Assembly: GCF_000025545.1 (NCBI RefSeq)
Contig: NC_013889.1
Coordinates: 2,349,501-2,413,500 of the forward strand
Length of the DNA stretch: 64,000 nucleotides
Reading direction: 5' to 3'
DNA from: Thioalkalivibrio sp. K90mix
GTDB lineage: Bacteria > Pseudomonadota > Gammaproteobacteria > Ectothiorhodospirales > Ectothiorhodospiraceae
In this document: in pieces, positions 934 through 41,982 of the stretch
Position numbering within the stretch: the stretch's first letter is position 1
Layout of the letters: each line of letters opens with the position of its first letter
Notes under the pieces: generated by a model
What the model was told of the DNA's origin: nothing
Databases searched by the model: none
The model's input: only the letters and a program-made list of their open reading frames with translations
Program-made: the position numbers and the translations under genes

Positions 934-2418
934 TCAGGACGCGGCGCGGTGGCGGCGGGCGGCGTCGAGGCGGCGGACGAAGTCCTGCATCAGGGTAGTG
1001 TAGAGGGCTTCGCCGAGGACCTTGTCCTCAATGCCGGCGTCGAGGTTGGGGTTGTCGTTCACCTCGATGACCATCACGCCGCGCGGGGTCTGCTTGAGAT
1101 CGACGCCGTAGAGGCCATTGCCGATCAGGTTGGCGGCCTTGACGGCCGTCTTGACCACCGCGGCGGGCACGTCCGCCAGGGCCTGGGTGCGGAAGCCGCC
1201 CTCGCGCGGGCCGCCCTTGGCGTCGTGATTGACGATCTGCCAGTGCTTGCGCGACATCAGGTATTGCGAGGCGTACAGCGGCTGGCGGTTGAGCACGCCG
1301 ATACGCCAGTCAAACTCGGTGTAGACGAACTCCTGGGCGAGGATCAGATCGCTCTCTTTCAGCAGGCGCCGGGCGATGGATTCCAGCTCGGCGCGGTCGT
1401 TCGCCTTGAACACGCCGCGCGAGAAGCTGCCGTCCGGGATCTTGAGCACCACGGGATAGCCGATCTGCTCCTCCGCACGCAGGATGGTCTCGCGGTTGAG
1501 GATCACCGTCCTGGGCGTCGGCACGCGATGGGCGGCGAGGCGCTCGGCCAGGTAGACCTTGTTGGTGCAGCGCAGGATGGAGTCGGCGTCGTCAATCACC
1601 ACCATGCCTTCGGCCTCGGCCTTGCGCGCGAAACGATAGGTGTAGTGGTCGATCGCCGTGGTCTCGCGGATGAACAGGGCGTCGAACTCCGCCAGCCGGG
1701 GCAGATCACGTGCCTGGATCAGCTCGACATCCATCCCCTGCTCCTGCCCGGCGCGGGCGAAACGCTTGAGCGTGGCCGGCGTGGACGGGGCCATCGCCTC
1801 GTCCGGGTTGTGCAGGATGGCCAACTCGTAGCGCGCGCTGCGTGCCCCGCGGCGGCGCCGCCAGGGTTTGGAGAGGTAGCGCTCCAGCGCGGCGAAGAAG
1901 GCCGGCTCCTGCTCGGGCTCGAGCGCGTTCAGCGCGAACGGGCGCAGGGCGTGAATCTGCCAGCGCCCCTGCCGCCGGAACTCCACCCGGAACATGGGCG
2001 CGGGGAACAGGGCGAAGAGCTGCGCGGCGATCTCCTGCAGCGCCGGCTCGTCGCACTGGCCGAACAGCACGGTCAGCTCCAGCCGCTCGGGCTGCGCGGC
2101 CTGGCGGCTGCGGCCCAGCACGCGCGCCACGCGCTCGTCCAGCTCCCCGGTATCCAGGCTGTAGATGGACTTGCGCGACAGGTCCTGCAGGGTGCGCACG
2201 CTGGGGATCACCCGATGCCCGCGCGCCTCCGCCAGCAGCGAGCCGTAGTAGCCGGCCGACAGGTAGCGCTGGCTGCGGCACAGGTTGATCACCCGCAGGG
2301 TGGCCGGGTCGTCGGCGGCCGGGCCGCGCAGGTAGTCGTCGATGGCCATCACCAGCAGGTCGGGGAAGTGCGGCTTCCAGTCCGCCCGGCGCTCGACCAG
2401 GATGCGGTGCTCAGGCAT
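934..2418 (-). CDS. RimK-like ATP-grasp ligase with RLAN N-terminal domain
   Basis: Predicted cytosolic carboxylate-amine ligase that would join an amino acid or peptide to an acceptor carboxylate using ATP; the substrate is unknown. About 494 aa. The N-terminal third (SAGYYGSLLAEARGH, YSLDTGEL) matches the RLAN domain (RimK-like ATP-grasp N-terminal). The C-terminal half is an ATP-grasp fold with VVLKIPDGSFSRG, a DWRIGVL strand and the metal-binding EVNDNPN motif near residue 452. ATG at 2418 is preferred over GTG at 2424 because GGAGG sits six bases before it. It overlaps the upstream GNAT/C39 gene by 8 bp, so the two are translationally coupled. This pairing recurs in bacteria and suggests one peptide-modifying pathway. 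Family certain, substrate unknown. Confidence 0.85.
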   Translation of the reverse strand: MPEHRILVERRADWKPHFPDLLVMAIDDYLRGPAADDPATLRVINLCRSQRYLSAGYYGSLLAEARGHRVIPSVRTLQDLSRKSIYSLDTGELDERVARVLGRSRQAAQPERLELTVLFGQCDEPALQEIAAQLFALFPAPMFRVEFRRQGRWQIHALRPFALNALEPEQEPAFFAALERYLSKPWRRRRGARSARYELAILHNPDEAMAPSTPATLKRFARAGQEQGMDVELIQARDLPRLAEFDALFIRETTAIDHYTYRFARKAEAEGMVVIDDADSILRCTNKVYLAERLAAHRVPTPRTVILNRETILRAEEQIGYPVVLKIPDGSFSRGVFKANDRAELESIARRLLKESDLILAQEFVYTEFDWRIGVLNRQPLYASQYLMSRKHWQIVNHDAKGGPREGGFRTQALADVPAAVVKTAVKAANLIGNGLYGVDLKQTPRGVMVIEVNDNPNLDAGIEDKVLGEALYTTLMQDFVRRLDAARRHRAAS

Positions 2419-3580
2419 GCGCACCCTCCGGCGCCCGACGCGGGCCGATGATCACCGCCGCCTGCAGCCCCGCACGGCCGTAGCGCGCCATGCGCTCGAA
2501 GTCCGCACGCGCGATCGGCATGTTCACCGAATCCAGCGCGCGCTCACCCTGCTCGGCGTCCACGAACGGGTCGTGCACGTAGACAAAGCGCTCGTCGAAG
2601 CCGGTGACCGTGACCCAGTGCGGGAAGCGCTCGGCATAGAGCCGCACGCTGCTGATCAGCACCACCGGCACCCCGCCTTCGGCAGAGCGTGCCGCCAGCA
2701 TGGCCACGCTCACCGGGCCGTGCACCACCGGCACCCCGAGCTGTTTCAACTCCTCGACCATGTCCTCCTGCACCAGCTGCATCACCTCCTTCTTCTCCGC
2801 GCTGCGCACGGAATCCGCGAACGCCACGCCGCGATCGCGCACCAGCAGTTCCACCTCGAACCCGCGATGGGCAGCCGCCAGGGCAAGCCCGTACGGCCCG
2901 CAGCCGCCGTGGCCCGAGGTCATGAAAATCGTGGTGGCGTCGCGCCACAGGCGCAGCTCCAGGCGCCGATCCAGCTTGAGATCCGCATCGACAGCGCGCA
3001 TCGCCATCATCAGCGCGGCCGGGCCGCAGGTGAACTCCAGCGTCTGCGCGTAATACGGCGCACGCACCAGTGCCGGATCGGGACCGGGCGCCAGCGACTT
3101 TTGCAGCCGCAGCGCATCCATGTGGTCCTCGTAGTAGTCGTCGATCGTGCCGAAGTCGCGATACCCGAGCCCGCGGAACAGCGCCAGACTGGCCGCGTTG
3201 TCGCGCCGCACCTCCAGGCGCAGGTCGGTCCGCCCGTGCGCCCGCGCCGCGTCTTCCGCCGCCTCCACCAGGCGCCGCCCCAGGCCCTGGCCGCGCGCCC
3301 GCGCGCTGACCGCGATGGAGTACAGCCGCGCCAGCGATGTGCCCCGGCTGAACAACAGCATCACGTAGCCGAGCAGGCCCTCACCACCGGCCCCCTCCGC
3401 CACCAGCGAGGCCGCATGTCCCCGCGTGAGGAGATAGCGAAACTGCCGCCGCGAGATACGATCGACCTCGAACGCCGCATCCTCCAGCGCCACCAGCGCT
3501 TCCAGATCCTCCAGCGTAGCCGGACGGATCACGGGCGATTCTGCGGCGGGCGCGACCCGTTGCTTGACCTGCTGGCTCAC
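2411..3580 (-). CDS. GNAT acetyltransferase fused to C39-like peptidase
   Basis: Two-domain protein of about 389 aa. Residues 15-160 form a GNAT N-acyltransferase domain with acetyl-CoA loop RGQGLG at about 96-101. Residues 175-380 resemble a C39/papain-type peptidase, with candidate catalytic Q179, C185 (LEFTCGPAALMM), H321 (FPHWVTVTGFD) and D337 (VYVHDP). All are present, so the peptidase domain may be active. GTG at 3580 is chosen because a GGAG site lies six bases upstream and the GNAT domain begins soon after; a longer frame reaches 3781 but lacks domain content. It overlaps the downstream RimK-like ligase. Acylation, cleavage and ligation of one small peptide or metabolite is the likely theme; the substrate is not deducible. 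Confidence 0.82.
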   Translation of the reverse strand: MSQQVKQRVAPAAESPVIRPATLEDLEALVALEDAAFEVDRISRRQFRYLLTRGHAASLVAEGAGGEGLLGYVMLLFSRGTSLARLYSIAVSARARGQGLGRRLVEAAEDAARAHGRTDLRLEVRRDNAASLALFRGLGYRDFGTIDDYYEDHMDALRLQKSLAPGPDPALVRAPYYAQTLEFTCGPAALMMAMRAVDADLKLDRRLELRLWRDATTIFMTSGHGGCGPYGLALAAAHRGFEVELLVRDRGVAFADSVRSAEKKEVMQLVQEDMVEELKQLGVPVVHGPVSVAMLAARSAEGGVPVVLISSVRLYAERFPHWVTVTGFDERFVYVHDPFVDAEQGERALDSVNMPIARADFERMARYGRAGLQAAVIIGPRRAPEGAHA

Positions 3581-21254: not shown

Positions 21255-21405
21255 GTGTGCTCCTTGTCTCTTTCGTGATTCGGTCCGTGATACTGACCGC
21301 CAAAGGGCACTCCCGGGGCGGTCACACTTTATGAGGCGCACGCACTGGGGTAGTTTACGCGCCGCCCTCTTTTCGTGAAGGAAGTCGCAACCCCGTGTCC
21401 GAGCC

Positions 21406-21719
21406 AGGGAAATACTGATCAATGTACACACTCGCGTTGGTATCCCAGGTTTTCCGAGACCAGGCGCCTCTGGCAGCGGGTCGTGGTTCTACCCGCCCGT
21501 GGTTGATGGATGCGGGGCGCAACGCAAGATCGAGGAACCTGGGATACCAACCCCACAACTTAATGAACGAAGGGGCTCGGCCGCCTGTTGCTGTCAAAAA
21601 CGGGCGCGGGAACGGCGTTGCGGCTCCCTTGTGCAGAATGACTGCACGGCGGCCACCGCGCCGGGTTCCCACACAAAAGCGACTCGAGCGCGAGGGTGTC
21701 CATTGATCAGTGCTTCCCT
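21406..21719 (+). mobile_element. Hairpin-rich MITE-like element, copy 2 (314 bp)
   Basis: Terminal inverted repeats AGGGAAATACTGATCA and TGATCAGTGCTTCCCT (a few mismatches). Internal pairs: GGTATCCCAGG (21439-21449) with CCTGGGATACC (21538-21548), a GCGGGT/ACCCGC hairpin, GCCTGTT/AACGGGC and GTGCAG/CTGCAC. The right end adjoins the rep coding sequence and supplies a TTG start. No transposase and no target duplication seen. Confidence 0.87.
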
Positions 21720-23760
21720 GAATCCGCAACAGCAGGCGGCCGTGACCACCACGGACCGCCCCCTGCTGGTGCTGGCCGGAGCGGGCTCGGGCAAGACCCG
21801 CGTGATCACGGAGAAGATCGCGTACCTGATCGAGCAGCGCGGGCTCGAGGCCCGCCGGATTGTCGCGATCACCTTCACCAACAAAGCCGCGCGCGAGATG
21901 CGCGAACGCGTCCAGGGGCGCCTGTCGAAGGAACAGGCACGCGGGCTCGGCGTCTCCACCTTCCACACCTTCGGGCTGAACTTCCTGCGCCGCGAACTGG
22001 CCGCGTCCGGACTGCGTGCGGGCTTCTCCATCCTCGACCCGGGCGACTGCCGCTCGCTGCTGCGCGAGATCACCTACCGCGACGATACCGGCTCCGAGGT
22101 CGATGCCCTGATCGGCCATATCAGCCGCTGGAAGAACGACCTGATGACGCCGGAGGAGGCGCTGCACGAGGCCAGCCAGATGCGCGACGCCCCGGAGGCG
22201 ATCGCCGCGGCCAACCTCTACCCGCGCTACGAGGATGCCCTGCGCGCCTACAACGCGGTGGACTTCGACGACCTGATCAAGCGTCCGGTGGACTGCCTGC
22301 GCGTGGATGCCGATCTGCGCAACCGCTGGCAGGACCGCATCCGCCACCTGCTGGTGGATGAATACCAGGACACCAACGCCGCGCAGTACCAGCTGGTGCG
22401 CCTGCTGGTAGGCGTCAGCGACGGCCTGACCGTGGTCGGCGACGACGATCAGTCGATCTACGCCTGGCGCGGGGCCCGGCCGGAGAATCTCGCACGCCTG
22501 CAGCAGGACTTCCCGCGTCTGGAGGTGATCAAGCTGGAGCAGAACTACCGCTCCACCAACCGCATCCTGCACACCGCGAACGCGCTGATCGCCAACAACC
22601 CGCACGTGTTCGAGAAACGCCTGTGGAGTGCACTCGGCGAGGGCGAGAAGATCGAGGTGATCGGCTGCTCTGACGCCGATACCGAGGCCGCCCGCGTGGT
22701 CTCCGAGCTGATGCGCCGTCGCTTCCGCCTGAATGCGACCTGGGGCGACTTCGCGATCCTCTACCGCAGCAACCACCAGTCACGGCTGTTCGAGAAGCTC
22801 CTGCGGGAGCAGGGCATCCCCTACCGCCTGAGCGGCGGGCAGTCGTTCTTCGAGAAGGCCGAGATCAAGGACCTGGTCGCCTACCTGCGCCTGCTTGCGA
22901 ACCCGGACGACAACACCGCCTTCCTGCGCGTGGTCAACGTGCCGCGCCGCGAGATCGGGCCGGCGACCCTGGAAAAGCTCGGCCACTACGCCAACCAGCG
23001 TGGGACCTCGCTGCTGCAGGCCGCACGTGGTGCCGGCCTGTCCGAATACATGGATGCCCGCGCCCAGGCGCGGCTGGAACGCTTCACCGACTGGGTCGAC
23101 GGCTTCCAGCGCCGGGGCACGGAGGAGGCCCTCGACGCCCTGCTGCGCGCCCTGGTCGAGGACATCGACTACGAATCCTGGCTGCTGGAAAACAGCCCCA
23201 ACCCGCGCGCCGCCACACGGCGCATGGAGAACGTGCGCGAGTTCATCGACTGGGTCGGGCGCATGGGCGGCGGCAGCACCAGCGCCGAATACGGCGACGA
23301 CGAGGCCGAGGATGACCGAGGCATGGACCTAGCCGACATCGTCAACCGCATCAGCCTGATGGACATCCTCGACCGCAATCGCGAATCCCAGGACGGCGAC
23401 GAGTCGGTACAACTGCTAACCCTGCACACCGCCAAGGGCCTGGAGTTTCCGCACGTCTGCCTCGTGGGTTTCGAGGAAGAGCTGCTGCCGCACCGGGTCA
23501 GCGTCGAGGACGACTCCATCGAGGAGGAGCGCCGCCTGGCCTATGTCGGCCTGACCCGCGCCCAGCAGACCCTGCTGATCACCTACGCCCAGCAACGCTC
23601 CCGCTACGGCGAGACCATCGACTGCGAGCCCTCGCGCTTCCTCGACGAACTCCCCGAGGAACACCTCGAATGGCCGGACGCCAAACCGCCGGACCCCGAG
23701 ACCCAGCAACTCACCGCCCGCGCCCACCTCGCCGGCCTGAAGGCCATGCTCGGCAAATAG
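21703..23760 (+). CDS. rep: Rep-type UvrD-family DNA helicase with element-derived start
   Basis: Superfamily 1A 3'-5' helicase, about 685 aa (E. coli Rep 673), that aids replication forks past obstacles. Motifs: Q-motif LNPQQQAAV, Walker A AGAGSGKT at 25-32, FTNKAAREM, DEYQDTN near 218, QSIYAWRGA, QNYRST, and C-terminal TLHTAKGLEFPHV and VGLTRAQQ. The frame is open upstream into the repeat element. The likely start is TTG at 21703, inside the element's terminal repeat, with GAGGG seven bases before it. It adds ISAS before LNPQQQ. Deleting the element exactly restores GTG at 21395 in frame (M-S-E-P-NPQQQ), probably the original start. Gene identity is certain; start use is inferred. Confidence 0.93.
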   Translation: MISASLNPQQQAAVTTTDRPLLVLAGAGSGKTRVITEKIAYLIEQRGLEARRIVAITFTNKAAREMRERVQGRLSKEQARGLGVSTFHTFGLNFLRRELAASGLRAGFSILDPGDCRSLLREITYRDDTGSEVDALIGHISRWKNDLMTPEEALHEASQMRDAPEAIAAANLYPRYEDALRAYNAVDFDDLIKRPVDCLRVDADLRNRWQDRIRHLLVDEYQDTNAAQYQLVRLLVGVSDGLTVVGDDDQSIYAWRGARPENLARLQQDFPRLEVIKLEQNYRSTNRILHTANALIANNPHVFEKRLWSALGEGEKIEVIGCSDADTEAARVVSELMRRRFRLNATWGDFAILYRSNHQSRLFEKLLREQGIPYRLSGGQSFFEKAEIKDLVAYLRLLANPDDNTAFLRVVNVPRREIGPATLEKLGHYANQRGTSLLQAARGAGLSEYMDARAQARLERFTDWVDGFQRRGTEEALDALLRALVEDIDYESWLLENSPNPRAATRRMENVREFIDWVGRMGGGSTSAEYGDDEAEDDRGMDLADIVNRISLMDILDRNRESQDGDESVQLLTLHTAKGLEFPHVCLVGFEEELLPHRVSVEDDSIEEERRLAYVGLTRAQQTLLITYAQQRSRYGETIDCEPSRFLDELPEEHLEWPDAKPPDPETQQLTARAHLAGLKAMLGK

Positions 23761-27965: not shown

Positions 27966-28562
27966 GTGCGCAATATTTCCCGGACCTTCCTGACAGGCCT
28001 GGCGGCGATCCTGCCGCTGGTCATCACCCTGGCCCTGCTCTGGTGGCTGGGCAGCACGGCCGAAAAGGTCCTCGGCGGACTGCTGGGTGCGATCCTGCCC
28101 GACGCCCTGTATTTCCCGGGTCTTGGTATCCTTGCCGGCGTCGCGCTGGTGTTTGCGCTGGGCGTACTGCTTCAGGCCTATGTGGTGCGCGGGCTGTTCG
28201 ACTGGATGGAATCGCTGATGCAGCGCATCCCGGTCATCAAGACGATCCACGGGACCGTGCGCGACGTCACCAACCTGCTCTCCGGCGACATCCACAAGCG
28301 TTTCGGACAGGCCGTGCTGGTGACCTTTCCCGGCAGCGACTTCAAGCTGGTCGGCTTCGTCACCCGCGAGGATTTCGAGGGCCTTCCGAACAACCTGGGC
28401 GGCCCGGAAACCCTCGCGGTGTACATGCCCATGAGCTACCAGATCGGTGGCTACACCCTCATGCTCCCGCGCGAACGCATCGAGCCGCTGGACCTGTCGC
28501 TGGAGGATGCCATGCGCTATGCCCTGACCGCCGGCGTCTCCGCGCGCCAGGAAAAGACCTAA
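27966..28562 (+). CDS. DUF502 family membrane protein
   Basis: 198-aa inner-membrane protein with two transmembrane segments near the N-terminus (FLTGLAAILPLVITLALLWW; FPGLGILAGVALVFALGVL) and a conserved soluble part (IPVIKTIHGTVRDVTNL, VGFVTREDF). Function unknown; the family is widespread. GTG at 27966 is chosen because GGAGAC lies about seven bases upstream and the membrane segments begin nearby. The TAA stop is formed by a host T plus the first two bases of repeat element copy 3. Confidence 0.85.
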   Translation: MRNISRTFLTGLAAILPLVITLALLWWLGSTAEKVLGGLLGAILPDALYFPGLGILAGVALVFALGVLLQAYVVRGLFDWMESLMQRIPVIKTIHGTVRDVTNLLSGDIHKRFGQAVLVTFPGSDFKLVGFVTREDFEGLPNNLGGPETLAVYMPMSYQIGGYTLMLPRERIEPLDLSLEDAMRYALTAGVSARQEKT

Positions 28563-28857
28563 GGAGACGCTGATCAATTCGCACGTCCGCGTTGGTGCCC
28601 ATTTTTTCCGAGACAAGGCGCGGTGCGCAGTGCCGTAGTCACTCTACGGCCCCGTGTCGATCATCGGGGCGCAACGCAGGATCGGGGAAAATGGGGCACC
28701 AACCCCGAAGGGGCTCGGCCGCCCCTATTGGATAAAAATGGGCCCGCTGACGGCGTTGCGGCTCGCTTATGTAGCTCGACTACACTTCGCTCGCCGCGCC
28801 TTGTCATCGAGAAAAATCGACTCGAGCGCGAACGTGCGAATTAATCAGCGTCTCCTT
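28561..28857 (+). mobile_element. Hairpin-rich MITE-like element, copy 3 (297 bp, divergent)
   Basis: Most diverged copy. Terminal repeats AAGGAGACGCTGATCA and its near complement at the right (ending GCGTCTCCTT). Internal stems differ in sequence but still pair: GGTGCCCATTTT (28594-28605) with 28688-28700, GCCGTAG/CTACGGC, and TGTAG (28770-28774) with CTACA (28780-28784), where other copies have GTGCAG/CTGCAC. It fills the space between DUF502 and coaBC. Confidence 0.85.
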
Positions 28858-28876
28858 AAGGGGTAGAATCCGCCGC

Positions 28877-37545: not shown

Positions 37546-38925
37546 TCAGCCGTCGGCCTTCACCCGTTTTGGATCGATGCCCAGTGCCTTGAACTTGCGA
37601 TAGAGGTGGGTGCGCTCCAGCCCCACCCGCTCGGCCAGCCGTGTCATGTTGCCTTCCGAGCGCTCCAGTTGCTGGATCAGATACTCGCGCTCGAACTGCT
37701 CGCGCGCCTCGCGCAGCGGCAGGTCGGGGATCGCCAGTGCCCCATCCTCGAACTCCTCACCGCGCTGCGGCTGGCCGGTCAGGGTGCGCTCGACCTCGTC
37801 GCGGGTGATCTCGTCACCGGAGCCGAGGATCATCAGTCGCTGCACCAGGTTACGCAGCTCGCGCACGTTGCCGGGCCACTGATACTGCTGCAGCCGCTCC
37901 AGCGCCGGGCGCTGGAACAGCCGCATCGGCAGGCCTTCCTGCTGATGCAGATGGCGCATATGGTAGTCCAGCAACTCCGGGATGTCCTCCGCGTGCTCGC
38001 GCAGCGGCGGGATCGCCAGTGGCAGGACGTTCAGCCGGTAATACAGGTCCTCGCGAAACCGGCCCTGCTCCACCGCCTCGCCGAGATCGTGCTGGCTGGC
38101 GGCGATCACCCGAACATTGACACTGATCGGCTGATCGCCCCCGATCCGGGTAATGCGCTGGGTGTCCAGGGCGTGCAGTAGCCGGCCCTGTGTCTGCATG
38201 TCCATCTCGGCGACCTCGTCGAGGAACAGCACGCCACCGGCGGCTTGCTCCAGCAAGCCATAGCGCACGCGATCGCCCTGCTCGCTGCCGAACAGCTCGG
38301 CCACGGCCTCGTCGCCCGACAGCGAACCGACCGAGACTACGATGAACGGGCTGTCCCGCCGCGCACTGCGCGCATGCAGCAACCGGGCAAAGGTCTGCTT
38401 GCCTACCCCCGGCTCGCCCGTGATCAGCACCCAGGTGTCGTGTTGCGCCATGCGCTGCACCTGGTCGCGCAGGTTCACCATCACCGCGCTGCCACCGACC
38501 GGATCGGCGACCGTGCCGGCATGGCGCTTCAGGCCCACGTTCTCGCGCTGCAGGCGGGCGGCCTCCAGGGCATTGTTGAGCGTGATCAACAGCTTGTCGA
38601 TCGACAGCGGTTTTTCAATGAAGTCGTAGGCGCCCAGCCGCGTGGCGTCGACGGCGGTCTCCACGTTGCCGTGGCCGGAGATCATCACCACCGGACAGGG
38701 CAGACCCTCGTCGTCGCCCCACTCCTTGAGCAGGGAGATCCCGTCGCCATCCGGCATCCAGACATCGAGGAGGATCAGATCCGGGCGGCGGCTGCGCCGC
38801 TGGGCCTTGGCCTCGGCCACCGAGCCGGCCAGCGCCACCTGGTAGCCCTCGTCCTCGAGGACATCCTGCAGCAGCATCCGGATATCCGGTTCGTCGTCGA
38901 CGACCAGTACGTACGGTTCGCTCAT
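37546..38925 (-). CDS. ntrX: NtrX-like response regulator lacking the GAFTGA loop
   Basis: 459-aa two-component regulator. Receiver domain 1-120 with VVDDEPDIR, phospho-acceptor Asp in LLDVWMPDGDG and KPLSIDKL; AAA+ domain about 140-380 with Walker A GEPGVGKQ and Walker B FLDEVAEM; Fis-type helix-turn-helix at the C-terminus (ERSEGNMTRLAERVGLERTH). Between ELFGSEQG and LLEQAAGG the sequence is DRVRYG: the canonical GAFTGA loop that contacts sigma-54 is missing. It therefore probably does not activate sigma-54 promoters but may regulate sigma-70 genes. Overlaps ntrY by 4 bp. Confidence 0.9.
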   Translation of the reverse strand: MSEPYVLVVDDEPDIRMLLQDVLEDEGYQVALAGSVAEAKAQRRSRRPDLILLDVWMPDGDGISLLKEWGDDEGLPCPVVMISGHGNVETAVDATRLGAYDFIEKPLSIDKLLITLNNALEAARLQRENVGLKRHAGTVADPVGGSAVMVNLRDQVQRMAQHDTWVLITGEPGVGKQTFARLLHARSARRDSPFIVVSVGSLSGDEAVAELFGSEQGDRVRYGLLEQAAGGVLFLDEVAEMDMQTQGRLLHALDTQRITRIGGDQPISVNVRVIAASQHDLGEAVEQGRFREDLYYRLNVLPLAIPPLREHAEDIPELLDYHMRHLHQQEGLPMRLFQRPALERLQQYQWPGNVRELRNLVQRLMILGSGDEITRDEVERTLTGQPQRGEEFEDGALAIPDLPLREAREQFEREYLIQQLERSEGNMTRLAERVGLERTHLYRKFKALGIDPKRVKADG

Positions 38926-41141
38926 TCCGGTTCCTCGTGGGCCAGGGCCTGCGGGGTATGTTCGACCGGGATGCGAATGCGGAAAACCGCCCCACCTTCG
39001 CCCGCCGGTTCATTATGGCACTCAATCATGCCGCCATGTTCCTCGACGATCTTCTGCGCGACCGCCAAACCGAGACCGGTTCCACGCGGCTTGTCAGTGG
39101 TGTAGGGCTCGAAGATGCGTTCCAGCAGCTCGGGCTTGATCCCCGGGCCCGTGTCGGTCACCCGCAGCTCGATATGCGGCCCAGTCGGATCGTCCAGATA
39201 GGCAGTGGCGATATGCACCACGAAGGCCTCCTGGTCTTTGCCGGCCTCCAGCGCGTTCTTGATCAGGTTGTGCAGCAGCTGTCGCAGGCGTCCGGCGTCG
39301 CCCCGAATCCCGGGCAGATCCGGCTCGAGGTCGGTCTGCACACGGGAATGGCCGTCGGAATCGACATACAGCTCGCAGACATCCTGGATCAGCTGGTTCA
39401 GGTCCACCGATCCCAGCTCCAGTCGCGGGGCCTGAGCGTAATCGCGGAAGGCGTTGACCAGCGTCTTCATCGCCTCCACCTGCTGGATGATCGTGCCGGT
39501 CGCGCGATCCAGGACATCGCGGTCGGCCCCGTCGAGGACCTTGCCCAACCGGCGCGACAGACGCTCGGCGGATAGCTGGATCGGGGTCAGCGGATTCTTG
39601 ATCTCGTGTGCCAGACGCCGGGCCACCTCGCCCCAGGCGGCATCGCGCTGCGCCTTCAGGAACTCGGTCATGTCATCGAACACGATCGCGTGCAGGCCGC
39701 GACTGGAGCCCGAGGTTGGCAGCCAGACGGCACGCGTCATCAGCACCTTGCGCCCGGAACGGGTAAACACGACGACCTGCCGCGACCACTCGTCTTCCTG
39801 GCGCGCCAGGGCATCGTTGATCGCCTCGAAAAACTGCCCGACCAGCGGACACTCGGCGCCCAGCTCGGAGATCGGACGCGCACGGGCGCCCTGCAGGTCG
39901 CACTCCAGGATCTGGCCGGCGGCCTCGTTCGCGGTGCGAAGGCGCAGACTGCCATCCAGCGCGAGCACGCCGGAACGCAGGTGCTGCAGGACACTCTCCA
40001 GGTAGGCGCGCTCGGCATCCAGCAGGCGGCGGTTGCGCTCGGCCTCGTCACGCGCCTCGTTCAACGTGCGCGTCATGGCGTTGAACGACTGCACCAGAAA
40101 GCCCAGTTCGTCCGCCCGCTGCACCGCGAGCCGGGTGGAATAGTCGCCAGCGGCCACCAGCCGTGTCCCCTGCACCAGATCGGAGATCGGACGCACCATG
40201 CGCCGCGCCACCAGCAGCCCGGCCCACAGGGCCGCCATCAGCGAGATCGCCAGCGCCAGCGACAGGGTGAAGATAAAGCCCTGGATGATCGGGCCGCGCA
40301 GGTAGGCGAACTCGCGGTAGCCGGCAAAGGCGTCCTCCACGCGTTGCGACAGGGCCGACATGCGCGGGTCGACCGGGTAGATCCCCTGCAGGATGCGGTT
40401 CTCCGCCCCCGGCCTTCGACTGCTGGTGGTAGCCACCACACGGATGACCAGCGAGCCGTCGGTCTGCGGTTCCAGGCGCGAATACGGCTGCTCCGGGCGC
40501 ACGCGCATCAGGATATCGGCCCCCGGGGGACTGGGCAGGCGGCGGATCGGGCTGTCGGTGGAGGAGGCAATGATGCGGTTGTTGGAGCCGACCAGCGTCA
40601 GTTCCTGGGCCCCAACCTGACGGCGGTAGTCATTCAACGCCAGCGGAACCAGGCCCTCCGAGACCCCTTCCAGCTCGCTCATCATCTCCTGCGTCTCGGT
40701 CGCCAGTTGGCGCACACGCAGATCCAGCGACGAACGCGACAGCTCCAGGGCATCCTCCAGCGCAGAGTCCACGCGCACGTCGAACCACGAATCCACGCCC
40801 TCGTTCAGGAACTCGAAGGAGAAGTAATAGACGACCGACACCGGCAGCACCGCGACCAGCATGAACCCCCCGACCAGCCGCAGCGTCAGGCGGCTGCCGG
40901 GAACGCCCTGGCGATACTGAGCAACCATGCGGACGACCTGGTGGACGATCAGGCCACCCAGTACCAGCAGGATCGCGGCGTGGAATACCAGCAGCCACAG
41001 GAACAGCTGCTCGAAGCGGGCCTGGTCCTGCGCCGCCCCGCCCATGACCACCAGCGAGGTCAGCAGCAGCAGGAACAGCAGGCCCATGCCCAGCAGGCCC
41101 CATGGGAAGCGTCTTAGGGAAACGCTGATCAATGTACACAC
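38922..41141 (-). CDS. ntrY: NtrY-like sensor histidine kinase with element-derived N-terminus
   Basis: About 739-aa membrane kinase paired with NtrX. Transmembrane segments lie at the N-terminus (LLFLLLLTSLVVM, then near 45 and 90) with a periplasmic loop, a further TM near 290, HAMP domain, PAS-like domain, HisKA motif RLAHEIKNPLTPI, and HATPase motifs KNALEAG, DTGPGI, GTGLGLAVA. The annotated GTG at 41141 and an alternative TTG at 41132 both lie in repeat element copy 4; the first eight or nine residues come from the element. Exact removal of 41116-41414 joins ATG at 41428 in frame (M-V-T-G-L-RRFPWG) with GGGAG upstream, so that was probably the original start. Identity firm; actual start untested. 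Confidence 0.9.
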   Translation of the reverse strand: MCTLISVSLRRFPWGLLGMGLLFLLLLTSLVVMGGAAQDQARFEQLFLWLLVFHAAILLVLGGLIVHQVVRMVAQYRQGVPGSRLTLRLVGGFMLVAVLPVSVVYYFSFEFLNEGVDSWFDVRVDSALEDALELSRSSLDLRVRQLATETQEMMSELEGVSEGLVPLALNDYRRQVGAQELTLVGSNNRIIASSTDSPIRRLPSPPGADILMRVRPEQPYSRLEPQTDGSLVIRVVATTSSRRPGAENRILQGIYPVDPRMSALSQRVEDAFAGYREFAYLRGPIIQGFIFTLSLALAISLMAALWAGLLVARRMVRPISDLVQGTRLVAAGDYSTRLAVQRADELGFLVQSFNAMTRTLNEARDEAERNRRLLDAERAYLESVLQHLRSGVLALDGSLRLRTANEAAGQILECDLQGARARPISELGAECPLVGQFFEAINDALARQEDEWSRQVVVFTRSGRKVLMTRAVWLPTSGSSRGLHAIVFDDMTEFLKAQRDAAWGEVARRLAHEIKNPLTPIQLSAERLSRRLGKVLDGADRDVLDRATGTIIQQVEAMKTLVNAFRDYAQAPRLELGSVDLNQLIQDVCELYVDSDGHSRVQTDLEPDLPGIRGDAGRLRQLLHNLIKNALEAGKDQEAFVVHIATAYLDDPTGPHIELRVTDTGPGIKPELLERIFEPYTTDKPRGTGLGLAVAQKIVEEHGGMIECHNEPAGEGGAVFRIRIPVEHTPQALAHEEPE

Positions 41142-41414
41142 TCGCGTTGGTAACCCAGGTTTTCCGAGACAAAGCGCGTCGTGCAGGGGGTAGTGGTTCT
41201 ATCCGCCCGTGTTTGATGGATTCGGGGCGCAACGCGGGATCGGGAAACCTGGGTTGCCAACCTCAAGGGGCTCGGCCGCCCGTTATTGACAAAAACGGGC
41301 GCGGGAACGGCGTTGCGGCTCCCTTGTGCAGAATGACTGCACGGCAGTCGCCGCGCCTTGTTCGCACGCAAAAGCGACGAAGCAGCGGGCGTGTACATTG
41401 ACCAGCGTTTCCCT
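41116..41414 (+). mobile_element. Hairpin-rich MITE-like element, copy 4 (299 bp)
   Basis: Terminal repeats AGGGAAACGCTGATCA and complement (ending CAGCGTTTCCCT), extended through AATGTACAC. Internal pairs: GGTAACCCAGG (41149-41159) with CCTGGGTTGCC (41248-41258), GCCCGTT/AACGGGC, and GTGCAG (41326-41331) with CTGCAC (41337-41342). It sits between DUF4390 and ntrY, touching both reading frames. No transposase and no target duplication. Confidence 0.88.
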
Positions 41415-41982
41415 AATCCAGTGACCATCGATGCCACTCCCGCCGGGTGGTGAGGTCACCGCGCAGACCGGCATCCAGCTGCAGCGGCAGGGGCAGCGCC
41501 GAATACACGAGCAACAGCCGCGCGGCCATGTTGTAATCCTCCGGCCGCTCGCGCACCGCCCCCGGGACGCCATGCATCGGCAGGCGCCCGAGTCGACGGG
41601 CCACATACTCCAGGGCATCGCCCAGGGTCGGCTTGAGCTCCATCCGGTCGTCGTTCACGTCGGTTACCAGGTAATACCGGTTCAGCGCAAAGTATTGCAG
41701 CTTGACCCGGCGTGTCTCGTGCTGCACGGACTCCCGCCCCAGCCAGCGATCCCGTTCGATCCGGGCCTCGGCCTCGAATTCCAGCGTGACCCCGTTGGCC
41801 AGCGCGTCCTCCAGCACCTGCGGCAGTCGCATGTCGAGCACAAGGCGCACCAGCAGGGTGTCATCGTCCATCCACATGTGCCGGGCGTCGCGGATCTCCA
41901 GGGCCTGCGCCGCACCCGGGACCAGCGCCAGCACAAGCGACCACGCCAGCAGCAATCCGATCGGCGACCGCCCCGCGCGCAT
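41413..41982 (-). CDS. DUF4390 family exported protein
   Basis: 189-aa protein with an N-terminal signal (IGLLLAWSLVLALVPGAAQA) and a beta-rich domain of the DUF4390 family; segments LEIRDARHMWMDDDTLLVRL and YNMAARLLLVYSALPLPLQL. Function unknown, but the gene is almost always between rsmB and ntrY. The stop TAG is made of a host T and the first two bases of repeat element copy 4; without the element the stop would be TAA at the same place, overlapping the original ntrY start. Confidence 0.85.
   Translation of the reverse strand: MRAGRSPIGLLLAWSLVLALVPGAAQALEIRDARHMWMDDDTLLVRLVLDMRLPQVLEDALANGVTLEFEAEARIERDRWLGRESVQHETRRVKLQYFALNRYYLVTDVNDDRMELKPTLGDALEYVARRLGRLPMHGVPGAVRERPEDYNMAARLLLVYSALPLPLQLDAGLRGDLTTRREWHRWSLD

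Follow-up and report, generated by a model that had tools for sequence, protein, structure and literature searches.

A miniature transposable element separates ntrY from its start codon in Thioalkalivibrio and may relay ribosomes to a replacement start through a conserved open frame

On the minus strand of a 64,000-nucleotide window from the soda-lake bacterium Thioalkalivibrio sp. K90mix (the whole stretch of DNA analyzed here, with positions counted from its first letter), the genes for an RsmB/F-type methyltransferase, a DUF4390 protein, the sensor kinase NtrY, and an NtrX-like protein follow one another in that order. A 299-bp miniature inverted-repeat transposable element (MITE), with near-perfect terminal inverted repeats (TIRs) of about 26 bp, sits in the overlap between the DUF4390 gene and ntrY. 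The C-terminus of the DUF4390 protein is retained despite the insertion, and ntrY is cut off from its native ATG. That ATG now heads an open reading frame (ORF), here called the bridge, which runs through the whole element and ends in a TGA that overlaps a TTG in frame with ntrY. From comparative sequence evidence, we consider it probable that ribosomes read through the element and that ntrY restarts by termination-reinitiation, with the open bridge, a TGG codon near its entry, and the TTG kept by selection. The features of the locus are as follows.

41413 to 41982, minus strand: DUF4390 gene (PF14334), which now ends in a TAG stop at 41413-41415, created at the element edge.
41437 to 41441, minus strand: native Shine-Dalgarno (SD)-like GGGAG of ntrY, still present (anti-SD duplex energy -7.0 kcal/mol).
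41426 to 41428, minus strand: native ntrY start ATG, cut off from ntrY and now the first codon of the bridge ORF.
41116 to 41414, minus strand: MITE copy of 299 bp, with TA on both flanks and without a transposase gene.
41402 to 41404, minus strand: TGG, the fourth element codon when read in the bridge frame.
41129 to 41428, minus strand: bridge ORF of 99 aa, which begins at the native ATG, spans the element, and ends in TGA at 41129-41131.
41139 to 41141, minus strand: in-frame GTG within the terminal repeat, shared by just three of the eight orthologous copies.
41130 to 41132, minus strand: proposed new ntrY start TTG, overlapping the bridge stop as TTGA.
38922 to 41132, minus strand: ntrY read from the TTG (HATPase_c, HAMP, HisKA, NtrY_N).
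37546 to 38925, minus strand: ntrX-like sigma-54 response regulator gene, whose start shares 4 nt with the ntrY stop.

Relatives were sought among 58 genomes (K90mix included), 48 of which had ntrY at threshold; 30 genomes with loci were inspected, comprising 29 genus genomes (K90mix included; one, G029, partial) and one outgroup. An earlier sequence-only reading of the window had proposed that the element severed ntrY from its ATG, that deletion of 41116-41414 would rejoin the two in frame behind an upstream GGGAG, and that element-free relatives would provide the check. Genome G026, whose ntrY is 99% identical, bears this out: it lacks the element and reads CGATGGTCCCTGGATTAAGACGC (ATG GTC CCT GGA TTA AGA CGC, or M-V-P-G-L-R-R), a natural empty site with the predicted ATG and the predicted join, and the GGGAG was located in K90mix at 41437-41441. 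In G026 the ntrY ATG overlaps the DUF4390 stop TAA, the native gene overlap being 16 nt. The ntrY site has TA on both sides when filled and a single TA in G026, with no longer duplication seen; many other copies of the family lack TA at one or both sides.

Eight of the 29 genus genomes (G000, G001, G002, G004, G005, G011, G021, and G022) have the element at an identical TA position and orientation. In G023 and G027, which are sisters in the ntrY tree, it lies inverted and about 8 bp upstream of the eight-genome site, and this insertion is therefore independent of the eight. In the remaining 19 genus genomes no terminal repeat was seen, by eye, before ntrY in the stretch inspected. Three element-free genomes (G026, G025, and G009) are nevertheless nested among carriers in the ntrY tree, and the history may be either an old single insertion followed by loss or recombination in these three, or repeated insertion. 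At the ntrY start, G026 retains GGATTAAG, and G025 and G009 have GGACTGAG (L033, L040, L042), differences hinting at excision, recombination, or repeated insertion. The gene itself is under purifying selection in the element lineages, the ratio of nonsynonymous to synonymous variation (pN/pS) being 0.13 in the eight carriers and 0.22 in six element-free genomes.

In K90mix, GTG 41141 and TTG 41132 are the sole ntrY-frame starts between the last in-frame stop of the element and the first transmembrane segment (TM1), as had been pointed out in the sequence-only reading, which proposed an element-encoded N-terminus for the kinase. A start within the terminal repeat is indeed most likely, but the GTG does not serve as a general start: it is GGG in five of the eight element-bearing orthologues and was rejected on that ground, whereas the TTG is present in all eight filled sites and is the sole in-frame start inside the element in G002 and G004. 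Additional in-frame starts occur further upstream in some carriers (TTG in G021, G022, and G011; GTGs in G005). The most likely N-terminus of NtrY, read from TTG 41132, is M-I-S-V-S-L-R-R-F-P-W rather than the M-C-T-L-I-S-V-S-L previously favored. The internal ATG at 41087 was also rejected as a general start; it is ATC in all four clade-B carriers, and the nine codons preceding it look translated, since they show 8 synonymous versus 2 amino-acid-changing extra codon types among the eight carriers. In G023 and G027 the terminal repeat has ATG in place of TTG as the putative new ntrY start. Of the eight ntrY copies, five have an SD-like GAGGG ahead of the TTG, as do all three copies at a rep/UvrD gene, versus 3 of 312 other copy ends; these counts include orthologues, which are not independent. 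While right about the severed start, the sequence-only reading overlooked that the severed ATG heads a conserved element-long ORF ending on the new start, and that this arrangement recurs at other genes.

The bridge is open through the entire element in all eight genomes, spanning 68 codons in G004, 99 in G000, G001, G002, G011, and G021, 102 in G005, and 104 in G022 (element lengths 206, 299, 308, and 314). Every one ends in a TGA that shares 4 nt with the TTG (TTGA), and alignment gaps inside the bridge are multiples of 3. Possible alternative bridge starts are an in-frame GTG (as upstream of 41428 in K90mix) or ATG 9 nt before the native ATG. Of 157 other copies of the family, two keep this frame open all the way across, and 13 do when it is entered from the other side. 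Codon 4 in the bridge frame is a stop in 138 of these 157 copies and in none of the eight ntrY copies, all of which have TGG; with length class matched, the frame's interior is open in 9 of 80 other copies, and in 15 of 157 irrespective of length. In a neutral simulation on the copies' tree, which modeled substitutions only and ignored the recombination that swapped 15-bp blocks suggest, all eight were open in 0.6-1.7% of runs, depending on the model and root. In the inverted insertion of G023 and G027, the DUF4390 gene ends on the TGA of the terminal repeat, and an ATG 3 nt later opens an ORF (37 and 94 aa, respectively) that ends in a TGA overlapping the new in-frame ntrY ATG. The stop-start overlap typical of a termination-reinitiation pair is thus found at ntrY as TTGA in 8 of 8 genomes and as ATGA in 2 of 2.

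These patterns suggest that the openness of the bridge matters more than the peptide it encodes. A functional element peptide was considered and rejected: three versions of the element ORF gave no Pfam match above the cut-off, and pN/pS is 0.83 for the bridge and 0.84 for the ORF of the R direction described below (60 sampled of 109 open R-ORFs).

Similar arrangements were found at other genes when 62 copy-directions having coding sequence next to the element were surveyed. The TIR TTG is in frame with the gene in 19 of these, namely the eight ntrY copies and 11 others at seven sites; an ORF ends on the TTG in 7 of the 11 (three sites). The rep/UvrD gene, tauE, and a gene of the MFS were picked from the survey for having no native start left. 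Relatives have element-free alleles of all three that bear starts, and in all nine instances the ORF across the element terminates at TTGA (rep/UvrD in G000, G021, and G005; tauE in G000, G027, and G021; the MFS gene in G026, G001, and G005). The rep/UvrD example lies within the window.

21403 to 21716, plus strand: second family copy, which donates the rep/UvrD start (repeat listed at 21406-21719); its own ORF, 21419-21703 (94 aa), ends on the new TTG.
21700 to 23760, plus strand: Rep/UvrD helicase gene read from the TIR TTG (M-I-S-A-S-L-N-P-Q-Q).

Here the native GTG start has been replaced by the element, and the Q-motif LNPQQ lies five codons past the TIR TTG, which has GAGGG ahead of it. 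In tauE the element is inserted after about nine codons, and the exit repeat of G021 lacks, in frame, 12 bases that are present in G000 (by eye). Both rep and tauE retain the codon-4 TGA and have an ATG 3 nt later; the MFS-gene copies have TGG at this codon, and their ORF begins at a GTG overlapping the upstream stop. Two further sets of copies with codon-4 TGG (L188/L174 and L214) were inspected as candidate donors, and none was a clear donor.

The element's family is represented at 40 scored places in K90mix, one of them partial (40 of 93 candidates were scored), and it is present in 16 of 30 genus genomes searched. It is not a product of chance, because 77 TIR-like ends were found versus 0 for a reversed control pattern. 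Copies are mostly 269-317 bp and lack a transposase gene. At L019, in the same genome, an insertion sequence (IS; 1816-3019) with a DDE_Tnp_1 plus DUF772 transposase directly abuts a MITE copy, and its TIR matches 19 nt of the MITE repeat, exactly at one end and with 4 mismatches at the other; this IS is a possible mobilizer of the family. We take both IS and MITE to be IS5-like. In one direction, designated R, 111 of 157 copies have an ORF that starts at an ATG in the TIR and extends as far as the opposite repeat, compared with 11 of 157 in the ntrY direction. Where gene, element, and gene are co-directional, with ntrY excluded, R prevails at 17 sites versus 3 (binomial p 0.0026; copies 27 vs 3), the gene calls behind this count coming from a codon-usage score trained on few genes. 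Openness of the R-ORF depends modestly on context (24 of 27 at co-directional R sites vs 87 of 130 elsewhere). Changes from the consensus that create stops are depleted in frame R0 (18 seen, 78 expected) and in frame F+1 (9 seen, 71 expected), and the remaining four frames are not stop-depleted (ratios 0.84-1.36).

Our preferred account of the ntrY locus begins with insertion of the non-autonomous element at a TA in the DUF4390/ntrY overlap, which separated ntrY from its ATG. Ribosomes would still initiate at that ATG, with its good SD, translate the 99 codons through the element, and stop at the TGA inside the far terminal repeat. The terminating ribosome would then re-initiate at the TTG overlapping this TGA by 4 nt and produce NtrY with an element-derived M-I-S-V-S-L. 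Selection would keep the bridge frame open, the TGG that lets it pass the first terminal repeat at a codon that is TGA in the family, and the TTG, because the translational coupling of the native 16-nt overlap would thereby be preserved. The DUF4390 stop now lies 280 nt from the TTG, so that coupling should end without the bridge; termination-reinitiation is reported to require overlaps or very short distances, of which -4 and -1 nt are the commonest (PMC10666635; also PMC6728339). A consensus scan of 40900-41700 found neither promoters nor terminators, other promoter types remaining possible, and Rfam gave a single match over 40900-41600, below the gathering threshold (E 0.98). A large RNA motif of Thioalkalivibrio, named 'Soda Lake RNA', is on record (PMC11109978).

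A broader proposal, which we offer tentatively and would not yet favor, is that the whole family is a translation-transparent parasite. A relay in the TIR (TGA-NNN-ATG at entry, TTGA or ATGA at exit), together with the one-direction ORF, would let ribosomes restart on the host gene, so that copies could occupy the starts of genes and the interior of operons without polar effects, and their orientation bias would match; the copies at ntrY and tauE, unusual in facing the other way, would persist through an open weak-side frame. The stop depletion lends this wider claim only weak support, because F+1 has no role in the model and the openness of the R-ORF is only modestly context-dependent.

Several observations weigh against coupling through the bridge or its extension to the family. 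The depletion of stops in F+1 means that open frames can have another cause. At ntrY, conservation of the bridge peptide is slight, a single insertion may be ancestral to all eight copies (making their counts non-independent), and G023 and G027 likely represent one event. The codon-4 TGG may be a property of the founder, or it may be convergent, since the independent MFS-gene site has TGG too. In K90mix the SD before the TTG is weak (-3.4 kcal/mol, the family median), a GTG also stands in frame near the TTG, and the TTG falls within a strong predicted RNA stem, the element transcript having a very stable predicted fold (-157 kcal/mol, z -11.6) with the TTG in its terminal stem. The three further genes were selected for their lost native starts. 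Elsewhere in the survey, the ORF at L170 stops on a native ATG that is still present, and the one at L236 continues in frame into its gene. A bridge is lacking at two sites where the TTG is in frame: L247, which looks like a single gene broken in two, and L251, where the native ATG survives.

An alternative explanation is that the element merely donates a start: ribosomes would bind de novo at the TIR TTG or GTG with a weak SD, and the bridge would be a passive by-product of its founder. The TTG in all eight copies and the GAGGG in five agree with this, one TGG-bearing founder could underlie all the copies, and start donation is known for MITE ends (PMC6382973). However, the bridge is open in eight diverged copies, with a simulated chance of about 1% and an open interior in only 9 of 80 comparable copies; a separate bridge exists in the inverted insertion; and in K90mix the SD is of merely median strength and the start is inside the strong predicted stem. 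We therefore regard donation alone as unlikely. Coupling might instead be mediated by structure, with the 26-bp terminal stem folding out the element and bringing the DUF4390 stop beside the TTG, so that the terminating ribosome opens the stem and frees the start. The predicted stem does place the TAG at the foot of one strand and the TTG within the other, and paired changes in clade B (CAACG / CGTTG vs CAATG / CATTG) maintain pairing, but matching repeats are a general feature of transposition, the open bridge is left unexplained, and the stem would be melted by ribosomes translating the bridge, which makes this quite improbable.

Initiation of NtrY at the internal ATG 41087, with the element neutral, deserves little credence. 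That ATG is present in clade A and most outgroup genomes inspected, yet it is ATC in the four clade-B carriers, the codons before it change in the manner of coding sequence (8 synonymous vs 2 replacement), and a start there would drop the basic R-R-F-P-W before TM1. The bridge and ntrY frames are -1 related at their overlap, as a frameshift fusing the bridge peptide to NtrY would need, but no slippery heptamer of the form X XXY YYZ was found by eye in GAGTGTGTACATTGATC, and the TTGA overlap makes a shift unnecessary; we give this explanation almost no weight.

Rickettsia palindromic elements are small mobile repeats of a related kind that are translated with host genes as in-frame fusions; the ntrY bridge, by comparison, ends in TGA, with ntrY in another frame. 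Small repeats with ORFs have already been published (PMC2759123, PMC5896051), as have MITE ends able to donate gene starts (PMC6382973). MITEAba12 of Acinetobacter resembles the present element in having TIRs, many copies, a parent IS, and an outward-reading TIR that could give neighbors their first residues (MQQS). It differs in that every one of the six frames of its consensus contains two or more stops and neither orientation is preferred, and the available part of the account describes no bridge ORF or stop-start overlap (PMC6382973). QMITE1 and QMITE2 of Coxiella burnetii share overlaps with the ends of host genes, and QMITE1 is a 300-400-bp MITE with internal ORFs; the account, as far as available, stresses promoters and DUF1658 peptides rather than a termination-reinitiation chain (PMC5896051). 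The enterobacterial repeat units (Delihas 2007, PMC2759123) are likewise small and mobile, and their open frames are read together with host genes, but they fuse in frame within one protein, whereas the element ORF here is a separate cistron ending on the host start. The 4-nt stop-start overlap is that of known termination-reinitiation gene pairs (PMC6728339, PMC10666635); unlike in those pairs, the upstream cistron comes from a transposable element, its peptide is unconserved, and the start is mostly TTG (TTGA). No description of a MITE bridge cistron ending on the new start of a host gene was found in open-access titles and the beginnings of abstracts, subscription journals lying mostly outside this search.

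If coupling through the bridge is correct, an element can hit the start codon of one of two coupled genes and yet be tolerated, the means being a translated bridge and a new start, not a promoter. This would offer a testable mechanism for the accumulation of some small elements inside operons, and the annotated starts of ntrY, rep/UvrD, tauE, and the MFS gene in these genomes would merit re-examination.

Some further features of the locus and family were noted. The 4-nt overlap of the ntrY stop and the ntrX start (38922-38925) links ntrY tightly to its downstream gene as well. Orthologous copies elsewhere (L009, L180, L195, L226, L263, and others) differ by 15-bp blocks, with lengths of, for example, 285, 300, and 314 bp at one site, which suggests exchange between copies. 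The window also holds a copy of a divergent subfamily at 28560-28858, with the repeat GGAGACGCTGATCAATTCGCACGTCC, and a family copy on the other strand at 381-656.

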